A stretch of DNA of 56,224 bases. Origin: Candidatus Peregrinibacteria bacterium (lineage in GTDB: Bacteria; Patescibacteriota; Gracilibacteria; UBA1369; PNNO01). Below the pieces are notes generated by a model, which saw only the letters and a program-made list of their open reading frames with translations, made no database searches and was not told the DNA's origin. Where the stretch lies: contig JAFGJT010000002.1 of the NCBI GenBank assembly GCA_016928915.1, positions 1 to 56,224 on the forward strand. Reading direction: 5' to 3'. Below are positions 2,812 to 17,410 of the stretch, piece by piece (position 1 is the first letter of the stretch; each line of letters begins with the position of its first letter). The translations under genes were made by a program, and so were the position numbers.

Positions 2812-4215
2812 TTATATATCAATTCCCAATTTTACTATTTCACTGTTTATCCATTTCTCCGCTTCTTGTTCGTCTTTTTCTATCGCTATCTCCACGCCCC
2901 GCTTGGCGATTTCAAGCAGGGATTTGGAGAGTTTTTTTGTTTTGTACATTTCAGTAATTTTCCCTTTAATCTCTTTTTGCGTTTCTGAATCAATTTTTGG
3001 CAAAACAATTTTAGATAATTCATCTTTACCAACAGCTGTTAAAATTGTTCCTTTGCAACCTTTTTTTAATTGCAGTTGACCGACTTTTGTTTTTAATAAA
3101 ACAAGCAATGTTTCTGAGTTTAATTTATCCGAATTGACTGCAAAAAATCCAGTAGAGCATAAGGCATTTTTCCAATCCTCTGTTATTAAAGCGATACTAT
3201 CAAGCGAGCCTTCAATAGATGAAACAATCAAATCGCTTTTTTGCACTTTACGGCGTGCTCTTGACGGCAGTTCATTGCCAAAATTTTCCGTGTAGCCGTT
3301 GATTTCACCGTTTGATGAAATGTTTGCAAGTTCAATATACTTGTATTGCTCATTATCTTTTGGCGTAAAATTTTTGTCTTTGATTTTCACCAAATTTCCT
3401 AGTTCATCAAACCCGCCTTTATATTTCTTCACTGCTTCAATAATTTCCTCGTATTTTGGCTGAAAATACTCCGCGTCTATCCTCTCGACTTCTTGCATGT
3501 CGGAATAGTTTTTGACGAAAGAAAGTGTGTGCTTTGGCTTCCAATCTAAAAGCCCGAGTTCGGAAAGGAGTAGTGTTTCGGCTTGGGAGTAGAGGGATTT
3601 CGAGTCATCAATATACTTTTGTGATAGTAAATAAATTTTTTCTATAATGTCAGGAATGACTTTAAATATTGGTAATGGTATTTGATATAAAAAGAAAGGT
3701 GCGACTTCAGGCTGTAAACCTCCATACATCCCTTTATCAATCAATTTTCTTCCAAAATTTGTGTTTAGAAAAACTGCTAGAAAAAATGGATTTAATTCAC
3801 CACCTTTAATAATAAATGTATGTGAAGAAGCAATCGCTTGTTGATTATCTAAAAAAATAGAACATTGACCAAAATTTGCACCTGTCCTCGTAAGTAAAAT
3901 ATCTTTCTTAGTGATTAAATTATTTTTCAACAAAACAGCGTCCTTATTTGAAATGTATACAGGATTATTTTCAATATCTATCTGCAATGGCCTGACATTT
4001 TGAGCGCGTAGGAATAAAACACCATCATCTACATATTCTCTTTTAATTTCAGTCGGGTGTTTGATTTTTATCTTATAATCAATCAGTTTCTTGAATGATT
4101 TTGATTTTAGTTTGTCTTGAATGCTCAAATAATCAGCACGAAAAAAATCTGCATCAATTCTTAATGAATGAGACTCTTCTTTTACCGTTTTGTAATTTAC
4201 GATTGAGTATTGCAT
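2812..4215 (-). CDS. hsdS: Specificity subunit (HsdS) of a type I-like restriction-modification system
   Basis: A 467-residue protein with the two-repeat layout of HsdS: target recognition domain 1 (about 1-190), a conserved helical spacer (SLYSQAETLLLSELGLLDW), target recognition domain 2 (about 240-400) and a final helical region. Phrases typical of such subunits are present (DGVLFLRAQNVRP, KKDILLTRTG, IPLP, KYIELANISSNGEI). It would select the DNA sequence for the methyltransferase encoded upstream in the same operon. It starts two bases after the stop of the 469-residue gene at 4218, so the two are probably translationally coupled. The target sequence cannot be predicted. Confidence 0.85.
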   Translation of the reverse strand: MQYSIVNYKTVKEESHSLRIDADFFRADYLSIQDKLKSKSFKKLIDYKIKIKHPTEIKREYVDDGVLFLRAQNVRPLQIDIENNPVYISNKDAVLLKNNLITKKDILLTRTGANFGQCSIFLDNQQAIASSHTFIIKGGELNPFFLAVFLNTNFGRKLIDKGMYGGLQPEVAPFFLYQIPLPIFKVIPDIIEKIYLLSQKYIDDSKSLYSQAETLLLSELGLLDWKPKHTLSFVKNYSDMQEVERIDAEYFQPKYEEIIEAVKKYKGGFDELGNLVKIKDKNFTPKDNEQYKYIELANISSNGEINGYTENFGNELPSRARRKVQKSDLIVSSIEGSLDSIALITEDWKNALCSTGFFAVNSDKLNSETLLVLLKTKVGQLQLKKGCKGTILTAVGKDELSKIVLPKIDSETQKEIKGKITEMYKTKKLSKSLLEIAKRGVEIAIEKDEQEAEKWINSEIVKLGIDI

Positions 4216-4217
4216 AG

Positions 4218-5627
4218 TTATTTTTTGGAATTTTTTGGTAAATCTGGAAATTCGATAATAGCACCAAGCTCATTTTGAATTGCTTCTCTACATTTCTTTT
4301 TGAATTGCTCATCATTATTTTCAGCAAGATATTTTGCAACCCTAAAAAGATCAACTGTTTTTATGAGTGCAATTTTTTCTCTTTCAGTACCAGTTTTACA
4401 TTTTTTTGTAAAATCTAAGGTTCTTTTATTTGGTGGAGTGAGGCGTTGAGGATTGCCAAATAAAATGCCGAATGCTTTTTCCTCCACTTCATCCCTGACA
4501 AAATCTGCGTTCATAGATTCGATCAACTGGCGAAGTTTCGAAATATCTATATCTTTTTCATTTTTCCCCTCGCATTCGCCAATATACCTATGATCCTCAG
4601 GTGAAATAATCACCTGATCTAGTTCTAAATCTCCGTCATTATAATTTTCTGCACGGTATCCTAAAATTTTAAGTGCCTTAATGACGGCATTTTCCAACGG
4701 TTTGCCCTGTTCAAAAAGTAAATCTCTTAAAATTCGCTCCTCTGAAAGTTCAGCATTTAATTTGCCGATTTCTCTTGTAATACTAACAATCTTTTTTTCT
4801 TGATTTTTTATAGCTTGGATAATTTCTGTTTCTTTTGCGCCAATAAAGTCTGATCCACTAGCCCATTTTGGGGGCGGAGTTCTTTCTGCTGATTTGTTTA
4901 AATCGTCTGCTATTTGGATTATACATTCAACTAAGGTGTACCCAAACTTCAAAGCGGTTTTTGTCCAATATTCTTTTTCCTCACCCTTTTTATTCTTTTT
5001 TGTTTTTACAAATTTATCGTAATGGTAGTTTAAATAGGGTAAAACTATCAAATTTCCAGCACCAATTTTATATACTGCTCCTAAAATTTTGGCTTTATCT
5101 TTACCCGTAAAGACAACTTGAGCATTGTTTGGATCTTCTATGTAAAGCTGATATTCTAAATATTCCTTAAATTTTTTATAAAGATCGCTAAATATTGAAT
5201 TTCCAGAAAATTCAACATGCTTTCCAGAAGCAGATGTTAGTGTGCCAATACTAATCGGGAGAAAATTATAATTGCTGTATGTCTCGGTGCTGTAGTTATG
5301 TGTCTTTTTCTCTGTAGTTACGCTATAGGCAAGTGGATATTCTATTTTTTTAGATAAAAGTATAAAAACATTTTTTCCAGAGTTTAGGTGATCTTGTATT
5401 TCCTTTTTTAATTGAGAAATTCTTTGTTTATATGCTTTTGATGATTCAATGTTATAACAACCTCCATCACTCGTCGTAAAGCTAACCCAATTTCTGCTCG
5501 GACTGAATGAATCTGGTGAAATCAATAAAATATCAGCATCCATTAACGATTGTTCAGATGAAAAATCAATATATTCGGCAATATTTCCGGGGACTTCATA
5601 ACCGATTGAAAAAATTTTCTTGCTCAT
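4218..5627 (-). CDS. Restriction-system accessory protein with PD-(D/E)XK-like C-terminal domain
   Basis: I do not recognise the whole 469-residue protein. The N-terminal about 240 residues have alternating beta/alpha character (ADILLISPDSFSP, NVFILLSKK, GNLIVLPYLNYHY). A coiled coil follows (about 265-308), then a C-terminal domain carrying D337 and E353-G-K355 (the ECEGK segment), spaced like the active site of restriction-type nucleases, though no test of the fold was possible. It sits between the hsdM-tail fragment and hsdS, with 3- and 2-base spacings, so it belongs to the restriction operon. It could be a second effector nuclease or a structural subunit. Confidence 0.6.
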   Translation of the reverse strand: MSKKIFSIGYEVPGNIAEYIDFSSEQSLMDADILLISPDSFSPSRNWVSFTTSDGGCYNIESSKAYKQRISQLKKEIQDHLNSGKNVFILLSKKIEYPLAYSVTTEKKTHNYSTETYSNYNFLPISIGTLTSASGKHVEFSGNSIFSDLYKKFKEYLEYQLYIEDPNNAQVVFTGKDKAKILGAVYKIGAGNLIVLPYLNYHYDKFVKTKKNKKGEEKEYWTKTALKFGYTLVECIIQIADDLNKSAERTPPPKWASGSDFIGAKETEIIQAIKNQEKKIVSITREIGKLNAELSEERILRDLLFEQGKPLENAVIKALKILGYRAENYNDGDLELDQVIISPEDHRYIGECEGKNEKDIDISKLRQLIESMNADFVRDEVEEKAFGILFGNPQRLTPPNKRTLDFTKKCKTGTEREKIALIKTVDLFRVAKYLAENNDEQFKKKCREAIQNELGAIIEFPDLPKNSKK

Positions 5628-5630
5628 ACC

Positions 5631-5750
5631 TTATTTCCAAAAAGATAAATGATCTGATTTTGCCCATTCAATAAACTTTTCCGCCACGCCGTTGGGCAAT
5701 TCGCCGTCGTGATGGTTGTGCAGATCATGATTGATAATCAATTTTTTCAT
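5631..5750 (-). pseudogene. Duplicated 3' end of hsdM (39 codons)
   Basis: Read on the minus strand, this segment opens with ATG-AAA-AAA and then repeats the last 36 or so codons of the hsdM gene ending at 6748: INHDLHNHHDGELP here against INHDLHNHDGELP there, and both finish in HLSFWK-stop. The two copies differ at a few positions and by one inserted codon, so they have diverged in frame. The copy starts 4 bases after the rhuM stop and ends 3 bases before the next start, so it may still be translated as a 39-residue peptide. It is too short for the full-length ORFs to include it. Confidence 0.85.
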
Positions 5751-5754
5751 CTTA

Positions 5755-6744
5755 TTATTTTTTAACGGATTTGGAAAGCTTTTTTACTTCGCGGTCAAAG
5801 TCGGAAATATATTTTTTATCCTGTTTCTTGCGGTATTTTTCAAATTCCGCTTCGGCTTTTTTGCTCGCTTTTTCCGCGCTGATTTTCCCCGCATTTTTCA
5901 GCAGCTTCTTTTCGCTCAACTTTAAAAATTCATCTAATTTTTTAGCCCAATCAATCATTTTCATCGGTCTTTCGTTTGTTGCCTGTAATTCAGCAAAATC
6001 CAGGAAGAGCGATGCGATCAGATTTAACTGCTTTAATTCTTTTTCGTTTAAATAATTTTTGGCGATTCTGACATCCTGCGCAGTAATGTAATTGCCCTTA
6101 AAATTGGTTAGCCCCATCATAGTCCTTTTACTGTCTGCTCTTGTATGAATTATTTCCGCGGCGGTGTGTCCGTGCACGGCAAAGTGCATTTTGTTTTGCA
6201 CTGTGGCAAAAAACTGCTTTGTCAGTTCATCATCTTTGCGATAATCAATGCTGGTTGCGTAAATATCCGTTACTTTTTGGTAAAAATTTCTTTCGCTTGA
6301 ACGGATATCGCGGATTCGTTGCAAAAGCTCTTCAAAATATCTGGCTTTTTGTCCCCCTTGTTTCAGTCTTTCGTCATCCAGAGCAAAACCTTTGATAATA
6401 TATTCTTTGAGTCTTTGCGTCGCCCAAATGCGAAACTGGGTCGCGCGTTTTGAGTTTACCCGATAACCAAGAGCAATGATTGTGTCGAGATTATAATGTT
6501 TAGTATCGTACTCTTTGCCGTCAGAAGCAGTTATTCGGAAATTCCTAATAACTGATTTTTCCTCTAATTCTTGCGTAGAAAATATGTTTTTAAGATGTTC
6601 GTTAATTGTTGGTACGCTTACGTCAAAAAGTTCTGCCATAAGTTTTTGTGTTAGCCATACAGTTTCATTTTCAAATTGAACATTGATTTTAGTCTGCCCG
6701 TCTTCTGTCTGATAAATAACGATTTGGGATTGATTTTTAGCCAT
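5755..6744 (-). CDS. rhuM: RhuM-family protein within a restriction-modification operon
   Basis: A 329-residue protein matching the RhuM family (virulence-associated RhuM of Salmonella and many relatives): N-terminal ETVWLTQKLMAELFDVSVPTI resembling a DNA-binding helix-turn-helix, then the conserved YNLDTIIALGYRVNSKRATQFR...WATQRLKEYI block (about 83-115). The molecular function of the family is not established. Genes of this family are often found inside type I restriction loci, as here. The start lies 3 bases after the hsdM stop. It is bracketed by two copies of the hsdM 3' end, suggesting it entered the operon by recombination. The C-terminus is Lys/Glu-rich and helical. Confidence 0.85.
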   Translation of the reverse strand: MAKNQSQIVIYQTEDGQTKINVQFENETVWLTQKLMAELFDVSVPTINEHLKNIFSTQELEEKSVIRNFRITASDGKEYDTKHYNLDTIIALGYRVNSKRATQFRIWATQRLKEYIIKGFALDDERLKQGGQKARYFEELLQRIRDIRSSERNFYQKVTDIYATSIDYRKDDELTKQFFATVQNKMHFAVHGHTAAEIIHTRADSKRTMMGLTNFKGNYITAQDVRIAKNYLNEKELKQLNLIASLFLDFAELQATNERPMKMIDWAKKLDEFLKLSEKKLLKNAGKISAEKASKKAEAEFEKYRKKQDKKYISDFDREVKKLSKSVKK

Positions 6745-6747
6745 ATT

Positions 6748-6854
6748 TTATTTCCAAAAAGATAAATGCTCTAATTTTGCCCACTCAATAAACTTTTCCG
6801 CCACGCCGTCGGGCAATTCGCCGTCGTGGTTGTGCAGGTCGTGATTGATGACTA
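6748..6854 (-). repeat. Direct repeat copy A (authentic hsdM 3' end)
   Basis: The last about 107 bases of hsdM are repeated, with divergence, at 5631-5740 on the other side of rhuM. The two copies lie in the same orientation and both end at the same codon of hsdM. They give a record of how rhuM was placed between hsdM and the rest of the operon. Confidence 0.8.
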
Positions 6855-8832
6855 AATGTCCGTTTTTGTCGAGCTTCGGCTGATTATTTCCGTTTTTAAC
6901 AAACACATACTCGCCGGAATTGTCTTTGCCTGATTTTTCAGACACAGCAAAGAAAATCGGATAATCCTCTTGCTTCGGGCAAAGTTTGTCGTCCCACTTC
7001 TGTACAAAAAGCACGCTGGTTTTCGTTCCGGTGTGCGGTTTAAAAGTGTTTACATGAAGTCCGACAACTGCCAAAATTCTGGCTTTTTCTGAAATATACT
7101 CGCGGATATTTTTGTCCGAGGTATTGTTGAAACGGCCTTGCGGTAAAACAATCGCCATTCTTCCGCCCGGCTTCAAAAAGTTTAAGTTTCTTTCAATAAA
7201 TAAAATATCGCGCCCGACTTTTGATTTTGGCTTGTTCTTGTCGTTATAGCCGAGATCGTATTTGTGGATTATGCGGGATTCTTTGATGTCTCCGGCAAAC
7301 GGCGGATTTGCCATGAGAATATCAAAATTAAATTCTTTGTATGAGCTTTTATCTTTTTGCAGAGCTTCGAGTCGTTTTAGCCCAGCACCGTACACATCGT
7401 ACCAGTCGCGATTTTGGATTGTTTCGTTCCAGCGGTCATAATCAAGGTTGTTGAGGTGTAAAACATTGGTGTTTCCGTCTCCGGCGATTAAGTTTAAGGT
7501 GCGAGCTACGCGCACGACTTTTTCGTCAAAATCAATGCCAAAAACTTTGAGTACGTTTTCTTTTTCTTCTTCGGAAATGTCGGTATTTTGGAATAAGTGT
7601 CCTGTAATCTGAAAAATCGTATGCACGGTAAATCCGCAAGAACCGGCAGCGGTATCTACCATGTATTCGCCAGCTTTCGGATTGAGCATTTTAACGCACA
7701 TATCAATTACATGACGAGGCGTAAAGTATTGACCTTTTTCACCTTTTGACGACTTGTTGACCAAGTATTCAAAGGCTTCATCTATAATTTGCAAGTTGGA
7801 ATTGAAAAGTTTTATATCCTGCAAGCTGGAAACGCTGACGGAAAGATGGGAAGGCGAAAGCTGGATTTGGCTGGCTTCGTCAAAAACGCCGGGCCATTTG
7901 GTTTTGGCTTCATCAAAAAGTTTTTGTATTTTCTTTTTCAGCTCGCTTTCTGATTGTCCGGTGTTTCTAAATTCCAAAATTCTGAAACCGCTGTCATCAA
8001 TCTTGGTAATTTTCTCTTTCAAATCATCATATGATGTTTCTTTGCTAATCGTCGCGCCATATTCAGCCACAGGCTCTGCCACCATCATTGGGAAATTTTC
8101 TTGGGTTAAAAAGTAGTTGATAATTTCTTTGTCTTTAGCACTTTTACGTTCATCGTACAGCTTGGTGAAAATGAGCTTAAAAACTTCTTCAAAGACATCA
8201 ACCCCTGCGTTGGCCAAAACTTCATCTTCCATTTCTTGAATTATGGTTTTGAGCGATTTTCCTTCGTTCGGGATTTTGTCTTTGATGATTAAATCCTTAA
8301 GAGTAAATCTTTCTTTCAAAATATCTTCAAGCGTTTGGTCCGCTTTGGGAATGTCGGTAATGTCTTCAAAATAGTTCGGATCTTTGCGGTTGTAATGCGA
8401 GATTTGTCCGCCGTTGGTCCAAACGGCAATTGGCGCGCCGGTGGCGTTGGTATACGAGCGAAGCTGATTTTTTCCGTCCTGGAGTTTTGGCTTTTTAATT
8501 TCAACGATAATGTATTCAACAGTCGGGCGGTCTTTGTCAAAAATAACAATATCGGCGGATTTCACCTCACGGCCGAAATGGATTGCGTGCTCAAATTTAA
8601 TCCTCTGTTTAGGGTAGCCGTATTCTTCAAGCAGTTTCATTGCGTAAAGCTGACGAACAACTTCCTCCGGCTTTAATATGATTTCTTTATCCCGTATGGC
8701 GCAAACAACATAAAATTTGCCGTCTTTCTCGGTTATTTTATGTTCAAGCTCTGAAACAAGCTTTGTATTAAATAAAGAAAGGCTGTAATTCGAGTCTTTA
8801 AGAATTTGCGGTAATTTATTAACGTCTGGCAT
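6748..8832 (-). CDS. hsdM: Nuclease-methyltransferase fusion: HsdR-N-like domain plus type I N6-adenine methylase
   Basis: A 694-residue protein with two parts. The N-terminal about 160 residues look like the type I restriction HsdR N-terminal nuclease: D94, E111-I-K113 (EYIIVEIKKPK) and the trailing Q123-LRS-Y127 motif. The remainder is an N6-adenine methyltransferase of HsdM type: GQYFTP (368-373), SAM-binding DTAAGSCG (393-400) and catalytic NPPF (509-512). With HsdS it would modify DNA, and the fused nuclease could cut without a separate translocating HsdR, an arrangement known from BcgI-type (type IIB/IIG) enzymes. No hsdR gene lies in the window. First gene of the operon. Confidence 0.85.
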   Translation of the reverse strand: MPDVNKLPQILKDSNYSLSLFNTKLVSELEHKITEKDGKFYVVCAIRDKEIILKPEEVVRQLYAMKLLEEYGYPKQRIKFEHAIHFGREVKSADIVIFDKDRPTVEYIIVEIKKPKLQDGKNQLRSYTNATGAPIAVWTNGGQISHYNRKDPNYFEDITDIPKADQTLEDILKERFTLKDLIIKDKIPNEGKSLKTIIQEMEDEVLANAGVDVFEEVFKLIFTKLYDERKSAKDKEIINYFLTQENFPMMVAEPVAEYGATISKETSYDDLKEKITKIDDSGFRILEFRNTGQSESELKKKIQKLFDEAKTKWPGVFDEASQIQLSPSHLSVSVSSLQDIKLFNSNLQIIDEAFEYLVNKSSKGEKGQYFTPRHVIDMCVKMLNPKAGEYMVDTAAGSCGFTVHTIFQITGHLFQNTDISEEEKENVLKVFGIDFDEKVVRVARTLNLIAGDGNTNVLHLNNLDYDRWNETIQNRDWYDVYGAGLKRLEALQKDKSSYKEFNFDILMANPPFAGDIKESRIIHKYDLGYNDKNKPKSKVGRDILFIERNLNFLKPGGRMAIVLPQGRFNNTSDKNIREYISEKARILAVVGLHVNTFKPHTGTKTSVLFVQKWDDKLCPKQEDYPIFFAVSEKSGKDNSGEYVFVKNGNNQPKLDKNGHLVINHDLHNHDGELPDGVAEKFIEWAKLEHLSFWK

Positions 8833-10889: not shown

Positions 10890-10921
10890 ATGTTTGGTAG
10901 TTAATTGATTGTTTAAAATAA

Positions 10922-10948
10922 TTAGCACTCGAAATTATAGAGTGCCAA
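10922..10948. promoter_or_regulatory. CIRCE operator upstream of dnaK
   Basis: TTAGCACTC, nine bases, GAGTGCCAA: the classical CIRCE inverted repeat (TTAGCACTC-N9-GAGTGCTAA) with a single change in one arm. It overlaps the -10 of the dnaK promoter. CIRCE is the binding site of HrcA, encoded two genes upstream. Confidence 0.95.
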
Positions 10949-10962
10949 CCGGATGAGGTCAA
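10934..10962 (-). promoter_or_regulatory. dnaK promoter
   Basis: On the minus strand TTGACC (10957-10962) and a perfect TATAAT (10934-10939) are separated by 17 bases. The TATAAT lies inside the CIRCE spacer, so HrcA binding would block it directly. The predicted start near 10927 leaves an untranslated leader of about 38 bases. Confidence 0.85.
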
Positions 10963-12261: not shown

Positions 12262-12288
12262 TTAGCACTTGGTATTATATAGTGCCAA
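12262..12288. promoter_or_regulatory. CIRCE operator upstream of hrcA
   Basis: TTAGCACTT, nine bases, TAGTGCCAA: a CIRCE element with three departures from the consensus, weaker than the dnaK copy. It covers the -10 of the hrcA promoter, giving autoregulation of hrcA-grpE. Confidence 0.88.
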
Positions 12289-12301
12289 CCTATTTTGGCA
12301 A
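12274..12301 (-). promoter_or_regulatory. hrcA promoter
   Basis: On the minus strand TTGCCA (12296-12301) is 16 bases from TATAAT (12274-12279). The -10 lies inside CIRCE. The predicted start is about 20 bases before the hrcA ATG at 12247, which supports that start. Confidence 0.75.
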
Positions 12302-12304
12302 GTA

Positions 12305-12333
12305 TTTACAAAACCATTAAAAGTGATTATGAT
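12305..12333 (+). promoter_or_regulatory. Promoter of the 558-residue gene, divergent from hrcA
   Basis: TTTACA (12305-12310), 17 bases, TATGAT (12328-12333), about 28 bases before the ATG at 12361. It lies next to the hrcA promoter but its hexamers are outside CIRCE, so direct heat-shock control is not implied. Confidence 0.6.
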
Positions 12334-12360
12334 TTGCTACCCGAATAATTTTTATGAATT

Positions 12361-14037
12361 ATGGAAACTTTACCCGATCATGCTGAATTTGATGATACGA
12401 GAGAGGCCTATATTGAGATTTCAAGGGATACTGTTGAAAAAATAGCCCAAAATCTTTTTATTATATTTTCAAAATCCCAAATAAGCATTCCTGACTGGAT
12501 TAGCTGCCTTACCGATTACCTTTCGGAGCATTTTATGAATAATTTTACTCCTCAGGATGTTTTAAACTACATAATTAATAAAATCATAAAAGGTGATCAC
12601 GGGATAGATTTGGACAGCTGGACATACGACGCCCAACAGTCAAAGATACGGGAAGTGGCCGAGTGGCTTTGCGCCGAAAAAATTTGCGAAAACATTTTTA
12701 AGTACGAAGATGATATAAAAAAAGGCCTGGATGAAGGCAGATATCAGGAAATTCACTCAATTGAGGAGGTTAATGTAATCAGGGATAATGAGATTTTTTA
12801 CGGAAAACGAAAAAGTAAGTTAACCAAAAATCAGGAAGAGGAAATAAAAAGATATATTCAGGAAAATTATGTTATTAAAATTTCCGAAATGCTGGGATAT
12901 GGCACTAGGGTTAATGTTTTTGAGCTTAAACCCAAACAAATTCCCATGCCCATACCAAAAAGAGACAAAAGGCTTATGCTTAAAACTCCAAACAGGTTTT
13001 TGGTAATCAGGGTTTTACGAGACAATTACAAGGAAAGTCTGGGGAACAAAGTTAATGCATCCGAATTGGATGCTATAAAAACTTTTATTAAAGCAAAAAC
13101 TTTGCTTACTTTTGAAACCGTTAATGACGAGTATACTTCTGTGCAGGATGAAAAGGAGGATAATTCATTTATTCCGCCTTTAATAATTATAAAAGCAAAA
13201 TTATCACACGAGAAAGATCCGGAATATATTACAATCCAGAAAAAAATACAGCCGCGAGGTACGATATCACGGCTTGATATGAATTTTAAAGCCGATGTCC
13301 ATGATTCGGATAATTTTAGAAACAAGTTGCGGCAGTTTGTTTTAGCCTGCAAAAAGTTTTATAAAAAAGAAGAACGCATCCCGGATACTGTCGGCAGGGG
13401 GAATGTTTTATATACCCGCGAGAATGATGTTTTTTCAATTTATCTTGTTGATATCAATAACATGGCTCCGGTTCCGGACTGCAGGCTGCTTTCGCTTGTT
13501 TTGCTGCTTAAGGAGATAGAAAACGGATTGAAATCGGAATATTTTGAAGATATTAAAGCCGATCTTAAGTCGGAATATTTTAAAACAGCCCGTGAAATCC
13601 TTAAAATACTGGGCGCTTCCGAGAAGTACCAGCATTTTGATTTAAGGGCCATTCAGACCATTGTTGAAACTGTTTATTTAAATCCCGACAATTCTTTGGT
13701 GCATGATTTTTTAAGCAAAACAAGAATGATTGACGATAAAGACGAACCGATTTTTATGCACAATCTTGATAATCTTTTAAGACTTGAAAATGCGATTTGC
13801 GAGACTGAACTGGAGAAAGGATTAATAACCGACGAGGAATATAAAGAGAAAATTTTATTAATAAAAGAAGAAGATATTTATAAAATTTTTATAACATCAA
13901 GAGGTGAATGGGTCAACCAGCGCTCAACGGGGCTGCACGATATTTTAAAGAATAAAAATGAAGGTCACGATAACTGGATTTCTTATTTTATGACAAATTT
14001 ATATTCAATCATTTTACAAAAAAACGGAACCATTTAA
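12361..14037 (+). CDS. Hypothetical protein, 558 aa, possible kinase-like segment
   Basis: Not recognised as a whole. Soluble, acidic and mostly helical at both ends, with no signal peptide or membrane segment. A beta-rich central part (about 220-370) contains DTVGRGNVL followed 15-20 residues later by IYLVDINN (about 341-366). The D-x5-N...D spacing recalls the catalytic loop and metal-binding Asp of aminoglycoside-kinase-like folds, preceded by a segment (TIQKKIQPRG) that could be a hinge. This is inference from spacing only; a glycine-rich ATP loop is not clear. It overlaps the convergent gene at 14034 by 4 bases. Confidence 0.65.
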   Translation: METLPDHAEFDDTREAYIEISRDTVEKIAQNLFIIFSKSQISIPDWISCLTDYLSEHFMNNFTPQDVLNYIINKIIKGDHGIDLDSWTYDAQQSKIREVAEWLCAEKICENIFKYEDDIKKGLDEGRYQEIHSIEEVNVIRDNEIFYGKRKSKLTKNQEEEIKRYIQENYVIKISEMLGYGTRVNVFELKPKQIPMPIPKRDKRLMLKTPNRFLVIRVLRDNYKESLGNKVNASELDAIKTFIKAKTLLTFETVNDEYTSVQDEKEDNSFIPPLIIIKAKLSHEKDPEYITIQKKIQPRGTISRLDMNFKADVHDSDNFRNKLRQFVLACKKFYKKEERIPDTVGRGNVLYTRENDVFSIYLVDINNMAPVPDCRLLSLVLLLKEIENGLKSEYFEDIKADLKSEYFKTAREILKILGASEKYQHFDLRAIQTIVETVYLNPDNSLVHDFLSKTRMIDDKDEPIFMHNLDNLLRLENAICETELEKGLITDEEYKEKILLIKEEDIYKIFITSRGEWVNQRSTGLHDILKNKNEGHDNWISYFMTNLYSIILQKNGTI

Positions 14038-15182
14038 AGTTTGTTTAAAATATCTCTGACATTGTTAATAAGGGATTCGTCGCCGATTTTCTGCGCCAGA
14101 TCAAGCATTTTTTGGTATGTGTATTTATGTTGTTTTGCCTGCTCGATCGTTTTTATATTTGCAACTTTTTTTGCCAGATTGTTATATTCTTCAGCTGCTG
14201 CTGATTTTTTTATTTCGTTTTTAAAATCAAAGTTACCGGTTTTGTCCGCGTAAAATTCGGCTTTTGTATAGTTTTTTTGATTTAAAAAATATACGGACGC
14301 GTTATGATAGGCTATTTTTAAACTTTCTTTATCATCGGTTTTTGAAAGATAGAAAACCGCTGTTTCATAATTGTTCGTGTTTAAAGCGGCAATTCCAAGA
14401 TTGTGATAAGCAATGTTGAGGTTTTTGCTTACGATTTCCCTTAGGGAGCTTATGGCATAGGCAAGCTGGGAGCTTTTAACAAACACGTGTTCGGAAATTT
14501 TTTGGGTGTCTTCGCGGAAATCGGTTAAATCTAAAAGATTTGTTGAAATAATTTCAGTTACCGGAAGGATATGATCGAACTTTTCATACTTTGTTAACTC
14601 CCCTGAAGTGGCTTCAATATCAATTCCATGAAAGTGCAGACACACGTGCTCGGGTAAAAGTTTTATCTGCAGATCCTCCAGCGGAAATTTTGTGGAATAA
14701 AGATACGTATAAAGTGTAACAATCTGGTTGCAGTCGCCTTCAAGTTTTTGTTTGTCCGGATCGCGCAGCAGTTTGCCGAAACTTGAAGTCTCAATATATT
14801 CATAATATTTGCCCGGTTTTAAAAATTCGCATATCTGAGCCAGAAGTATAACTTTTTCAAGGTTAGCCGGGGGTATATCGATCGAGATTTTTTCAATCGG
14901 GTTTTCAGCACGGAATTTATTGAATTTTTCAACAATCTTTAATGTATCGGTATACATTTTTCTGCGTGCTTTTTTTGTAAGATAAATATAACCTTTGTAT
15001 TTTTTTTCCATCCAAATATTTACAATAATCAAATTTTTCTGCATCAGCTCAAGCAGTTTCCGCTTTATCGTAAAAATACTGTCGGTTGATTTTATGTGTT
15101 TGAAAAAAAGATCAACCTTCCACTCAAACAAATTCACATAGGGAGTAAAAAAAAGTATGATCTTTTTTATAACGTCAGACAA
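14034..15182 (-). CDS. Transglutaminase-like cysteine peptidase fold with C-terminal TPR repeats
   Basis: A 382-residue protein starting at a TTG (15182), 17 bases after the preceding stop; no ATG is available upstream. Three parts can be read: an N-terminal winged-helix-like region (about 20-75); a transglutaminase/SirB1-like core with EGDCNQIVTLYTYLY (C151) and HVCLHFHGIDIEATSG (H179, E190), matching the Cys-His-Asp/Glu order of that fold; and C-terminal TPR-like helices (about 250-335, NIAYHNLGIAALNTNNYETA). It is the last gene behind the attenuator-controlled small peptide, so it could process or bind it. The enzymatic activity is inferred. Confidence 0.65.
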   Translation of the reverse strand: MSDVIKKIILFFTPYVNLFEWKVDLFFKHIKSTDSIFTIKRKLLELMQKNLIIVNIWMEKKYKGYIYLTKKARRKMYTDTLKIVEKFNKFRAENPIEKISIDIPPANLEKVILLAQICEFLKPGKYYEYIETSSFGKLLRDPDKQKLEGDCNQIVTLYTYLYSTKFPLEDLQIKLLPEHVCLHFHGIDIEATSGELTKYEKFDHILPVTEIISTNLLDLTDFREDTQKISEHVFVKSSQLAYAISSLREIVSKNLNIAYHNLGIAALNTNNYETAVFYLSKTDDKESLKIAYHNASVYFLNQKNYTKAEFYADKTGNFDFKNEIKKSAAAEEYNNLAKKVANIKTIEQAKQHKYTYQKMLDLAQKIGDESLINNVRDILNKL

Positions 15183-15199
15183 TGCTATTTTAAGAAGTT

Positions 15200-15502
15200 T
15201 TATATGAATATTTGTGTGAATTTTTTGGCTTCCATTTCCATAATTTGCTCAATAGTCATATTTTGCGGATGCGTTAGGTCAAGATGGCTTTCGCTAAGCC
15301 GTTTTATAGGTTTTGTGGTGCTGTCGTGGTCGATTTTGTCTTTAGGAACGCCGTTTGAATCCAATAAAGACGAATCATAAATTATTTCATTTGGTTTGAG
15401 CTGCTGTAAAGGTGATGAAATATTTAAAGGCGGCTGCGTGATATCGTCAATATCAAACTCCAGTAATGAATCATAGCCAGCGTCAATTTTAGTTCGGGAC
15501 AT
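15200..15502 (-). CDS. Hypothetical protein, 100 aa
   Basis: Unrecognised. The protein is acidic and probably largely disordered, rich in Asp, Ser, Pro and Ile, with a short helix at the C-terminus (MTIEQIMEMEAKKFTQIF). No cysteines, no membrane segment. It lies between the small Gly/Cys-tailed peptide (62 bases upstream) and the transglutaminase-like gene (17 bases downstream) on the same strand, so the three are probably co-transcribed. Confidence 0.55.
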   Translation of the reverse strand: MSRTKIDAGYDSLLEFDIDDITQPPLNISSPLQQLKPNEIIYDSSLLDSNGVPKDKIDHDSTTKPIKRLSESHLDLTHPQNMTIEQIMEMEAKKFTQIFI

Positions 15503-15564
15503 ATTTAATCAAGTTATAGATATAACGCAAAAATTATAGTTATACATTTGAAATTTGCAAGTTT

Positions 15565-15753
15565 TTAACATCCGCCCCAGCCACAGGGTCCGCCGCCCAG
15601 ATCAAGTTTTATTTTTTCTCTGGTAGCTTCTTGAAGTTTTTTTGAAGCATCCTGAGCTTGGGGGCTAGTATTTTCTGCAGGCTGTTGTACGTGCCGTGAT
15701 TCCTGAGTCTCAATCCGCAGATTATAACAACAATTGTGTTCGGCGATAGGCAT
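15565..15753 (-). CDS. Small peptide with Gly/Cys-rich C-terminus, candidate modified-peptide precursor
   Basis: A 62-residue protein: a Gln/Glu/Ala-rich hydrophilic N-terminal part with a CC pair at residues 8-9, a charged helix (KKLQEATREKIKLDL, about 38-52) and an abrupt C-terminal tail GGGPCGWGGC. A leader-like region followed by a Gly-rich, Cys-containing tail is the layout of precursors of ribosomally made, modified peptides (RiPPs), but no radical-SAM, YcaO or lanthionine enzyme is nearby, so this remains a hypothesis; a metal-binding or lipid-anchored tail is also possible. The start context (TTTAACCAAAAAACT-ATG) matches other genes here. Expression is gated by the attenuator at 15781-15979. 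Confidence 0.55.
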   Translation of the reverse strand: MPIAEHNCCYNLRIETQESRHVQQPAENTSPQAQDASKKLQEATREKIKLDLGGGPCGWGGC

Positions 15754-15780
15754 AGTTTTTTGGTTAAAATAAATATTAGG

Positions 15781-15816
15781 TATATATAAAAAATTCCCCG
15801 TCTTATTGAGGGGAAT
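15781..15816 (-). terminator. Intrinsic terminator within the leader of the small-peptide operon
   Basis: On the minus strand ATTCCCC (15816-15810), a 10-base loop and GGGGAAT (15799-15793) form a perfect seven-pair stem, directly followed by TTTTTTATATATA. It lies about 40 bases before the ATG at 15753, between promoter and gene, so it must act as an attenuator. Its left arm is also complementary to TGAGGGG further upstream (see the antiterminator). Confidence 0.8.
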
Positions 15817-15859
15817 CAGACTGCTTTTTAATTTTTACACAGCAACTAATCGCCCCTCA
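15807..15859 (-). promoter_or_regulatory. Antiterminator pairing competing with the terminator
   Basis: On the minus strand TGAGGGG (15859-15853) is fully complementary to CCCCTCA (15813-15807), which contains most of the terminator's left arm. The two structures are mutually exclusive. TGAGGGG lies inside the leader ORF, three codons after its phenylalanine run, and can also pair locally with CCTC just upstream. This is the 1:2 / 2:3 / 3:4 arrangement of ribosome-controlled attenuators. The pairing is visible; its operation in the cell is inferred. Confidence 0.65.
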
Positions 15860-15914
15860 GAGGAGTAAAGAAAAATTCAAAAAAGAATTGAGTTGAGTTG
15901 TTGTGCAAGTTCAT
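15846..15914 (-). CDS. Phe-rich leader peptide ORF (22 codons)
   Basis: ATG at 15914, TAG at 15848-15846. The encoded 22-residue peptide contains FFFEFFFTP (residues 10-18), six Phe in seven positions, very like the FFFAFFFTF of the enterobacterial pheA leader peptide. It lies just downstream of a strong promoter and just upstream of the antiterminator/terminator pair, so it is best read as a regulatory leader ORF sensing charged tRNA-Phe. No Shine-Dalgarno is visible. In an AT-rich genome a run of T can give Phe codons by chance; the surrounding attenuator architecture is what makes it credible. Confidence 0.55.
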   Translation of the reverse strand: MNLHNNSTQFFFEFFFTPLRGD

Positions 15915-15951
15915 ATATTGCTTATATGTACATTGATGTATGTGCGTTGTC

Positions 15952-15979
15952 ATTTTATCACAACAAGGGGTTGAGTCAA
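15952..15979 (-). promoter_or_regulatory. Promoter of the attenuated small-peptide operon
   Basis: On the minus strand TTGACT (15974-15979), 16 bases, TAAAAT (15952-15957). Predicted start near 15945, giving a leader of about 190 bases before the ATG at 15753. Of the gene-poor stretch 15754-16156, this unit fills 15754-15979; from 15980 to 16130 I see nothing else. Confidence 0.7.
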
Positions 15980-16156
15980 GAAAAATATTATAGTTTGCAA
16001 TAATGTGATTTGTAAGAATAAAATATTACTGTTTTATGATGTTTGAAAAATTGATCAACCAAGAACATTAAGTACTGCAATTCATCCGGAATTGTCCGTG
16101 GTGGTTTGCGCTTAAAGGTCCTTGAACGTGTTTTGCAGAACAAAAAAAGGAGAAGT

Positions 16157-16345
16157 ATGATGGAAGAATCCAATGACGGTGAAGGTTCGGTGATTATTGG
16201 AATAATTTGTACTCTTGTGTTCGCGGGAGCAGCGTTGTTTAGCGCTCCACAAGAGAGGGGACCCCTCTTCATCACTGCCGTTTTTCTTGGACTTATCACT
16301 TTGCCCGGTCTTGTGGTTTGGATTGTTGACAGCTGTAAGAGCTGA
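16157..16345 (+). CDS. Small two-helix membrane protein, 62 aa
   Basis: The start is placed at 16157 because a strong Shine-Dalgarno (AAAGGAGA, 16147-16153) lies a few bases upstream; the frame continues further 5' but without such support. Residues 12-31 and 38-56 are hydrophobic helices separated by APQERGP, so it should span the membrane twice, ending in DSCKS. A hairpin terminator follows. Function unknown. It is one of very few genes here with a canonical ribosome-binding site, and its base composition is less AT-rich than the flanks, which may mean recent acquisition. Confidence 0.6.
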   Translation: MMEESNDGEGSVIIGIICTLVFAGAALFSAPQERGPLFITAVFLGLITLPGLVVWIVDSCKS

Positions 16346-16365
16346 TTGCAGAACACCTCACTCGT

Positions 16366-16401
16366 AAGGGGGTCATGCATATTTATGTTGAGCCCCTTTT
16401 T
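16366..16401 (+). terminator. Intrinsic terminator after the small membrane protein gene
   Basis: AAGGGG (16366-16371), an interior G mismatch, TCA, a loop, TGA, a second G and CCCCTT (16393-16398), followed by a T run to 16401. It serves the plus strand and abuts the gap stop codon at 16403. Confidence 0.8.
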
Positions 16402-16402
16402 C

Positions 16403-17410
16403 TTACATCTGGCTGCCGATCAGTCCCGCCATTTCAACGGTTCGTTCGCTGTAGCCCCATTCGTTGTCGTACCATGCGACAACTTTAACCAGGTTGCCGT
16501 CCATAACCATTGTTGAAAGCGAATCTACGATTGATGAATACGGCGAACCTTTGTAATCAACAGAAACAAGCGGTTCATCGGATACTGCAAGAATACCTTT
16601 CATGGATTTTGCGGCTGTATCTTTAAAAAGATTGTTTACTTCTTCAACTGTTGTTGATTTTTTAACGGTGCATACGAAATCTACAAGCGAAACTGTCGGA
16701 GTCGGAACGCGCACGGAAAAACCGTCGAGTTTTCCTTTTAAAACGGGGATAACTTCTCCGACTGTTTTTGCGGCTCCTGTTGTTGTTGGTATCATAGACA
16801 GCGCTGCTGCTCTTGCTCTTCTTAAATCTTTGTGCGCAACATCAAGAATATTCTGGTCGTTTGTGTAAGAATGAATTGTTGTCATGAGGCCTTTTTCAAT
16901 TCCGAGCGCATCGTTAAGCACTTTAACCAGGGGTGCGATACAATTTGTTGTACATGATGCGTTTGAAATGAGCAGGTCTTTTTCAGCGTGAAGGTCTTTT
17001 TCATTTACTCCCATGACCACTGTGCGATCGATATTTTTGCCCGGCGCGCTTATGAGCACTTTTTTTGCTCCCGCCTGCAGATGCTTGGCTGCTCCTTCAC
17101 GATCTGTGAATGCTCCGGTTGATTCAACCACAATATCAATATTATTATCTCTCCACGGAAGATTTAAAGGGTCGCGGTCATGTGTTAATACTATTGATTT
17201 TCCGTTAACTTTCATTTCGTTTTCGCTTATTAGTTCAACATCCGCATCTAGGGCGCCGTAGTTTGAATCATATTTTAAAAGGTGAGCCATTGTTTTGGCC
17301 GGATTTGGATCGTTTATGGCAACAACATCCAAAAGATCCTTTTTTATATTTACTCGAAAAACAAGACGGCCTATTCTTCCAAAGCCGTTAATTGCTACTC
17401 GTGGTTTCAT
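16403..17410 (-). CDS. gap: Glyceraldehyde-3-phosphate dehydrogenase, type I
   Basis: A 335-residue NAD-dependent GAPDH, converting glyceraldehyde 3-phosphate to 1,3-bisphosphoglycerate in the cytoplasm. Visible are the dinucleotide loop NGFGRIGR (8-15), the N33-D34 pair that binds the adenosine ribose in NAD-type enzymes, and the active site SNASCTTNCIAP with catalytic C153. The conserved C-terminal WYDNEWGYS is present. Length is normal. It is monocistronic, divergent from tsaC, and starts from ATG behind TTTAATCAAAAAACC. With fba and fbp it shows that triose-phosphate metabolism is encoded here. Confidence 0.97.
   Translation of the reverse strand: MKPRVAINGFGRIGRLVFRVNIKKDLLDVVAINDPNPAKTMAHLLKYDSNYGALDADVELISENEMKVNGKSIVLTHDRDPLNLPWRDNNIDIVVESTGAFTDREGAAKHLQAGAKKVLISAPGKNIDRTVVMGVNEKDLHAEKDLLISNASCTTNCIAPLVKVLNDALGIEKGLMTTIHSYTNDQNILDVAHKDLRRARAAALSMIPTTTGAAKTVGEVIPVLKGKLDGFSVRVPTPTVSLVDFVCTVKKSTTVEEVNNLFKDTAAKSMKGILAVSDEPLVSVDYKGSPYSSIVDSLSTMVMDGNLVKVVAWYDNEWGYSERTVEMAGLIGSQM

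Follow-up and report, generated by a model that had tools for sequence, protein, structure and literature searches.

A likely phenylalanine attenuator before genes outside phenylalanine biosynthesis in a putative CPR bacterium, and aromatic leader peptides across its order

Here we report a complete ribosome-type attenuator at positions 15979-15788 on the minus strand of the window, by which we mean the whole 56,224-nt stretch of DNA that was analysed. The element likely works as a ribosome-mediated phenylalanine (Phe) attenuator, and we give a probability of roughly 86% to the reading that it senses charged tRNA-Phe and gates a transcription unit of three ORFs of 62, 100 and 382 amino acids. 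Computation established the elements themselves, the way in which their pairings exclude each other, the codon at which the switch occurs, and the fact that the architecture recurs and covaries in relatives. The initial annotation had proposed a Phe attenuator of this type before non-biosynthetic genes, and both the folding switch and the uniqueness of the site support that proposal.

All the parts named in the initial annotation could be located on the minus strand. The promoter, TTGACT-N16-TAAAAT with a TG ahead of the -10 hexamer (15979-15952), matches 10 of 12 consensus positions and would start the transcript near 15945. It is followed by a leader ORF of 22 codons, MNLHNNSTQFFFEFFFTPLRGD, which runs from ATG to TAG (15914-15846) without a Shine-Dalgarno sequence and carries six Phe in seven codons in the control run TTC TTT TTT GAA TTT TTC TTT (15887-15867). 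The expected complementarity of TGAGGGG (15859-15853) with CCCCTCA (15813-15807) is there, as are the perfect terminator stem with its T6 run (ATTCCCC-10nt-GGGGAAT, 15816-15788) and a gene start soon after it, the first ATG 3′ of the terminator lying at 15753. Two features go beyond the earlier description. The 7-bp match is only the core of a longer antiterminator, GATTAGTTGCT / AGCAGtCTGATT, formed between segment 2 (TGAGGGGCGATTAGTTGCT, 15859-15841), which covers the end of the leader ORF and its stop codon, and segment 3 (AGCAGTCTGATTCCCCTCA, 15825-15807), which contains the left arm of the terminator; the 2:3 and 3:4 pairings are mutually exclusive, with CCCC(TCA) common to both. There is also a protector stem, in which segment 1 (leader codons 3-7, 15908-15896) pairs with 15847-15835 over 12 bp and one mismatch, with a duplex energy of -13.3 kcal/mol that is mildly better than that of shuffled sequences (181 of 5000 shuffles were equally good). 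With this 1:2 stem, all four classical segments are present in the element.

To follow the switch in silico, the RNA 3′ of the ribosome was folded with the ribosome set on each leader codon in turn. The antiterminator formed with the ribosome at any position up to the fifth Phe codon; once the ribosome had reached the sixth, and from there on as far as the stop codon, the terminator formed. The 81-nt antiterminator/terminator stretch folded better than all 200 of 200 shuffles (z -3.7), and the 1:2 stem formed in a ribosome-free transcript not yet extended to segment 3. The element thus combines a short ORF bearing a run of control codons, an antiterminator and a terminator that exclude each other, and a structure that is set, in silico, by the position of the ribosome on the control codons. 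In the mechanism that we propose, a ribosome amply supplied with Phe would translate past its control codons, reach the stop codon and cover segment 2, whereupon segment 3 would pair with segment 4 and RNA polymerase would terminate in the run of T near 15788. A shortage of Phe would stall the ribosome on the Phe codons, where it would cover segment 1 and leave segment 2 free to form the 2:3 structure, which would block the terminator and allow the downstream genes to be transcribed. Where the leader is not translated, 1:2 and 3:4 would form and transcription would stop. Transcription and termination at this site, translation of the leader, a response to Phe and control of the downstream ORFs are what this model predicts.

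The probable targets are three co-directional ORFs on the minus strand, which, as had been claimed, do not appear to serve Phe biosynthesis. The ORF nearest the terminator (62 aa, 15565-15753) has a Gly/Cys-rich end, GGGPCGWGGC, and no homologue in the 88 relatives of the order; its codon score of 0.061, slightly over the 95% null of 0.04, makes it likely to be a gene, and by its composition it resembles a small processed or metal-binding peptide of the Gly/Cys-rich sort. The 100-aa ORF that follows (15200-15502) has no homologue within the order either and is coding-like, with a codon score of 0.134 against a coding mean of 0.162; codon use favours both it and the 382-aa ORF as genes. The latter (14034-15182) is predicted to combine a transglutaminase-like core with TPR repeats: Cys, His and Asp motifs (GDCNQ, EHVCLHFHG, DIEAT) are kept in the alignment ahead of the repeats, and the predicted structure (pLDDT 88.9) finds its best PDB match, a weak one (E 0.0027), in menin, itself a transglutaminase-like/TPR protein. 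Of the 88 order relatives, 46 encode a homologue of the 382-aa protein, often directly after lepA, and the six genomes of the same family have none.

These ORFs and the attenuator, together with an opposing 558-aa ORF, make up a 4.1 kb insertion between the GAPDH gene and hrcA; this insertion is specific to the lineage and has a higher AT content than the DNA on either side. In the six relatives from the family, 62 bp to 2.2 kb separate GAPDH from the hrcA that comes after it, in several of them with differing genes between, and the gap (12268-16403 in the window) is an insertion hotspot of the family, holding an ORF of ∼160 aa in G003, G005 and G006 and one of ∼680 aa in G004. Between GAPDH and the attenuator, the opposite strand carries a short ORF (16106-16345) whose two hydrophobic stretches may make its product a small membrane protein. 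Elsewhere in the window, a CIRCE operator (10921-10955) upstream of dnaK and CIRCE-like half sites before hrcA are consistent with HrcA control, and positions 2812-8832 hold what was judged by eye to be a type I restriction-modification-like cluster (HsdS- and HsdM-like) with a RhuM-like ORF at 5755-6744.

The genome carrying the element does without Shine-Dalgarno sequences, which its gene starts avoid: such 4-mers precede 3% of long-ORF starts against 12% of internal ATGs, and gene starts are A-rich with a T at -1, while the 16S end still reads GGATCACCTCCTT. The missing Shine-Dalgarno sequence at the leader is therefore no objection to its translation. CPR bacteria lack ribosomal protein L30, and here the S5 gene is followed directly by that for L15 with no L30 between; this gene order, the 1.13 Mb genome and the small genomes of a phylum that counts over 160 families point to a CPR/Patescibacteria placement and bear out the earlier description of the genome as CPR-like. 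The genome has a DAHPS-aroB-aroA operon of its own without a leader. Prephenate dehydratase (pheA-type), tyrA and pheS were not found in the assembly, which is ∼96% complete, so they may sit in the ∼4% of the genome that falls in gaps; the dehydratase is present in 59 of the 89 genomes of the order.

The initial annotation had suggested looking in related genomes for this leader, with conserved Phe codons and compensatory changes in the stems, and the outcome was divided. Conservation across the family had to be rejected, as the exact leader is missing from all six same-family relatives along with the entire insertion. The idea that the pheS genes of relatives carry the same leader was likewise rejected, no Phe leader with a terminator lying upstream of the eight of 19 pheS genes that could be placed. 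The architecture itself does recur, with compensating changes in leader end and terminator arm, before aro operons, and at least nine of the order's families have it. DAHP synthase (DAHPS) is encoded in 61 of the 89 order genomes, and at 16 of the 30 DAHPS loci examined, spread over nine families, we found a leader peptide rich in F, Y and W followed by a terminator. All 16 leaders stand upstream of DAHPS or tyrA-DAHPS, in operons that, where readable, run on to aroB and aroA (G021, G032, G088, G084, G012, G013, G087, G011, G038, G016, G081, G007, G031, G028, G027 and G059); an additional leader precedes DAHPS-pheA in G075. In G021, for instance, the leader MNTLNKIFGFWFYFYSPIAVRTF, closed by a stop codon, with its GTGAGGA/TCCTCAC pair and terminator, lies immediately before DAHP synthase. 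When 17 leaders, the window's included, were folded by ribosome position, the change-over fell at or near aromatic codons in most of them.

Covariation was assessed in these 17 leaders by swapping leader ends between loci and comparing their match with the terminator arms of their own locus and of others, a design used because a MAFFT alignment of 15 aro leaders did not align the arms. The longest perfect match averaged 7.0 with the own arm against 5.0 with those of other loci, and none of 20,000 permutations was as good as the own pairing, whether by length or by energy. The sequences thus vary yet keep their complementarity, which indicates that the pairing is under selection in the leader group; the compensating changes hold for the set of 17 leaders taken together, that of the window being without a close homologue. 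Taken with the 16 of 30 loci, the covariation argues that amino-acid attenuators genuinely exist in this order of CPR bacteria and are widespread there, and the order-wide aro leaders may be a bigger result than the element of the window itself.

The aro leaders of the order are like that of the window in size, in spacing, in the pairing of leader end with terminator arm and in switching at aromatic codons; they differ in having mixed F/Y/W codons and biosynthetic targets, whereas the window's leader is all-Phe and its targets are of unassigned function. The peptide WGFEYFYFPSP of the G087 leader resembles the window's FFFEFFFTPLR, and this DAHPS leader is also the best local alignment of the window's leader (score 43, reached by 0 of 1000 shuffles, and with the top place in its own genome), although scores of 39-44 arise by chance for other leaders. 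A covariance model built from G087 and G038, whose automatic structure was poor, gave the window a non-significant E of 2.3 in its own genome. Descent of the window's leader from the aro leaders is thus only suggested by the sequences; the window's element would be an attenuator of the same kind as those of the aro operons, Phe-only and set in a lineage-specific insertion. At one of the examined loci, that of G088, and at no other, an aromatic attenuator and DAHPS come directly after a homologue of the 382-aa gene.

Several other accounts of the element deserve weighing. An AT-rich intergenic stretch could have placed a spurious Phe-rich ORF beside an ordinary terminator, and the fact that poly-T runs read as Phe codons lends this some colour, as do two more weak FWY-rich ORF/terminator pairs in the genome. 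Scanning all 1.13 Mb for a terminator, an antiterminator and a short ORF nevertheless returned the window's site as the only one at which 6 of 7 identical leader residues coincide with both structures, and no site in four Markov-shuffled genomes rose above 5 of 7. Short ORFs with six Phe in seven codons occur four times genome-wide, the window's alone with terminator and antiterminator, and a looser rule admitting F, Y or W, the one by which 16 of the 30 DAHPS loci were positive, gave three matches in the whole genome, the window's included. The FFFxFFFTP codon pattern is present once in the genome and in one further genome among 380 of the phylum; FFFEFFFTP had no second match in 85,000 species genomes, and 33 matches of FFFxFFFTP in viral contigs included none with the attenuator arrangement. 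Since, in addition, the switch point coincides with the Phe run and the same architecture stands before aro genes in at least nine families, we regard coincidence as very improbable.

It is somewhat less far-fetched, and still improbable, that the terminator serves to end transcription from the GAPDH side while the genes use a promoter behind it and the product of the leader ORF is a small peptide with a function of its own. Promoter-like hexamers do occur at 15560-15533 and 15410-15381, but over 580 nt and an opposing ORF separate the stop codon of GAPDH from the terminator, and a plain terminator needs neither a long antiterminator arm inside the leader ORF nor six Phe codons. A more serious competitor, which we consider possible but on balance unlikely, is that the attenuator has been orphaned: its former aromatic target, pheA or an aro operon, would have been lost or left behind, and present read-through would be incidental. 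The leaderless DAHPS-aroB-aroA operon, the failure to find prephenate dehydratase and tyrA in a genome whose order often keeps the former, and the lineage-specific, AT-rich character of the insertion all fit such a history. Set against it, the intact state of the promoter, the control codons and the two stems speaks for selection; the missing genes, like pheS, may lie in the gaps of the assembly; and the sequence behind the attenuator showed no recognisable remnant of pheA. We therefore retain the Phe attenuator acting on the three downstream ORFs as the preferred reading. A more speculative extension of it, which we offer tentatively and hold to be doubtful as yet, is a Phe-starvation sensor uncoupled from biosynthesis: in an organism without the branch that makes Phe, an accessory cassette would have taken up an aro-related attenuator, which would now switch on the transglutaminase-like/TPR protein and the Gly/Cys-rich peptide, possibly for nutrients or a change of life cycle, when host-derived Phe runs out.

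Amino acid biosynthesis is described as generally absent from CPR/Patescibacteria (PMC11665869), and in the partial literature collection available to us no paper linking Patescibacteria with attenuation or leader peptides was found, in keeping with the initial remark that amino-acid attenuators were not known from CPR bacteria. The mechanism itself is already known, being of the classical pheL-pheA type; what appears to be new is the lineage, the wide occurrence within it, the initiation without Shine-Dalgarno sequences and a Phe-only leader before non-biosynthetic genes. These observations suggest that a deep-branching lineage of bacteria, one without Shine-Dalgarno initiation, uses control of the classical Yanofsky type. 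The window's attenuator supplies a candidate Phe-responsive control element and points to a gene set of unassigned function as part of a starvation response, the small-genomed bacterium probably turning on these genes when short of Phe.

Among known RNA families, the closest counterpart is the Rfam Phe_leader (RF01859), which aligned over its full length to the window's leader at 40.1 bits, below its gathering cut-off of 55 bits; with the search confined to a short stretch, the E-value was 1.3e-5. This was the second-best Phe_leader match in the 89 genomes after that of G021 (42.8 bits). Matches at E ≤ 1 occur in 88 of these 89 AT-rich genomes and are mostly plain terminators, so the E-values are too optimistic here, and we reject them as proof and take them as support. 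The only Rfam family above its gathering score in the window was a tRNA, with no T-box riboswitch or other RNA family. The enterobacterial pheA/pheS likeness put forward earlier holds for the design, and in the wording of the peptide it is a resemblance only. With the pheL-pheA and pheST systems of Escherichia coli (RF01859) the window shares a Phe-rich leader peptide, a four-segment switch, a U-run terminator and a leader end within the antiterminator arm; it differs in belonging to a CPR genome without Shine-Dalgarno use and in its downstream genes, which are neither Phe biosynthesis genes nor Phe-tRNA synthetase, none of the three ORFs being one that makes or charges Phe. In Corynebacterium glutamicum, according to Neshat et al. 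(2014) as cited in PMC11802643 and PMC4046766, the aroR-aroF leader with its Phe-Tyr-Phe run precedes DAHP synthase and answers Phe limitation. That system, although from another phylum, is a functional analogue of the aro-operon leaders of this CPR order, from which the window's copy stands apart in being Phe-only and not before DAHP synthase.
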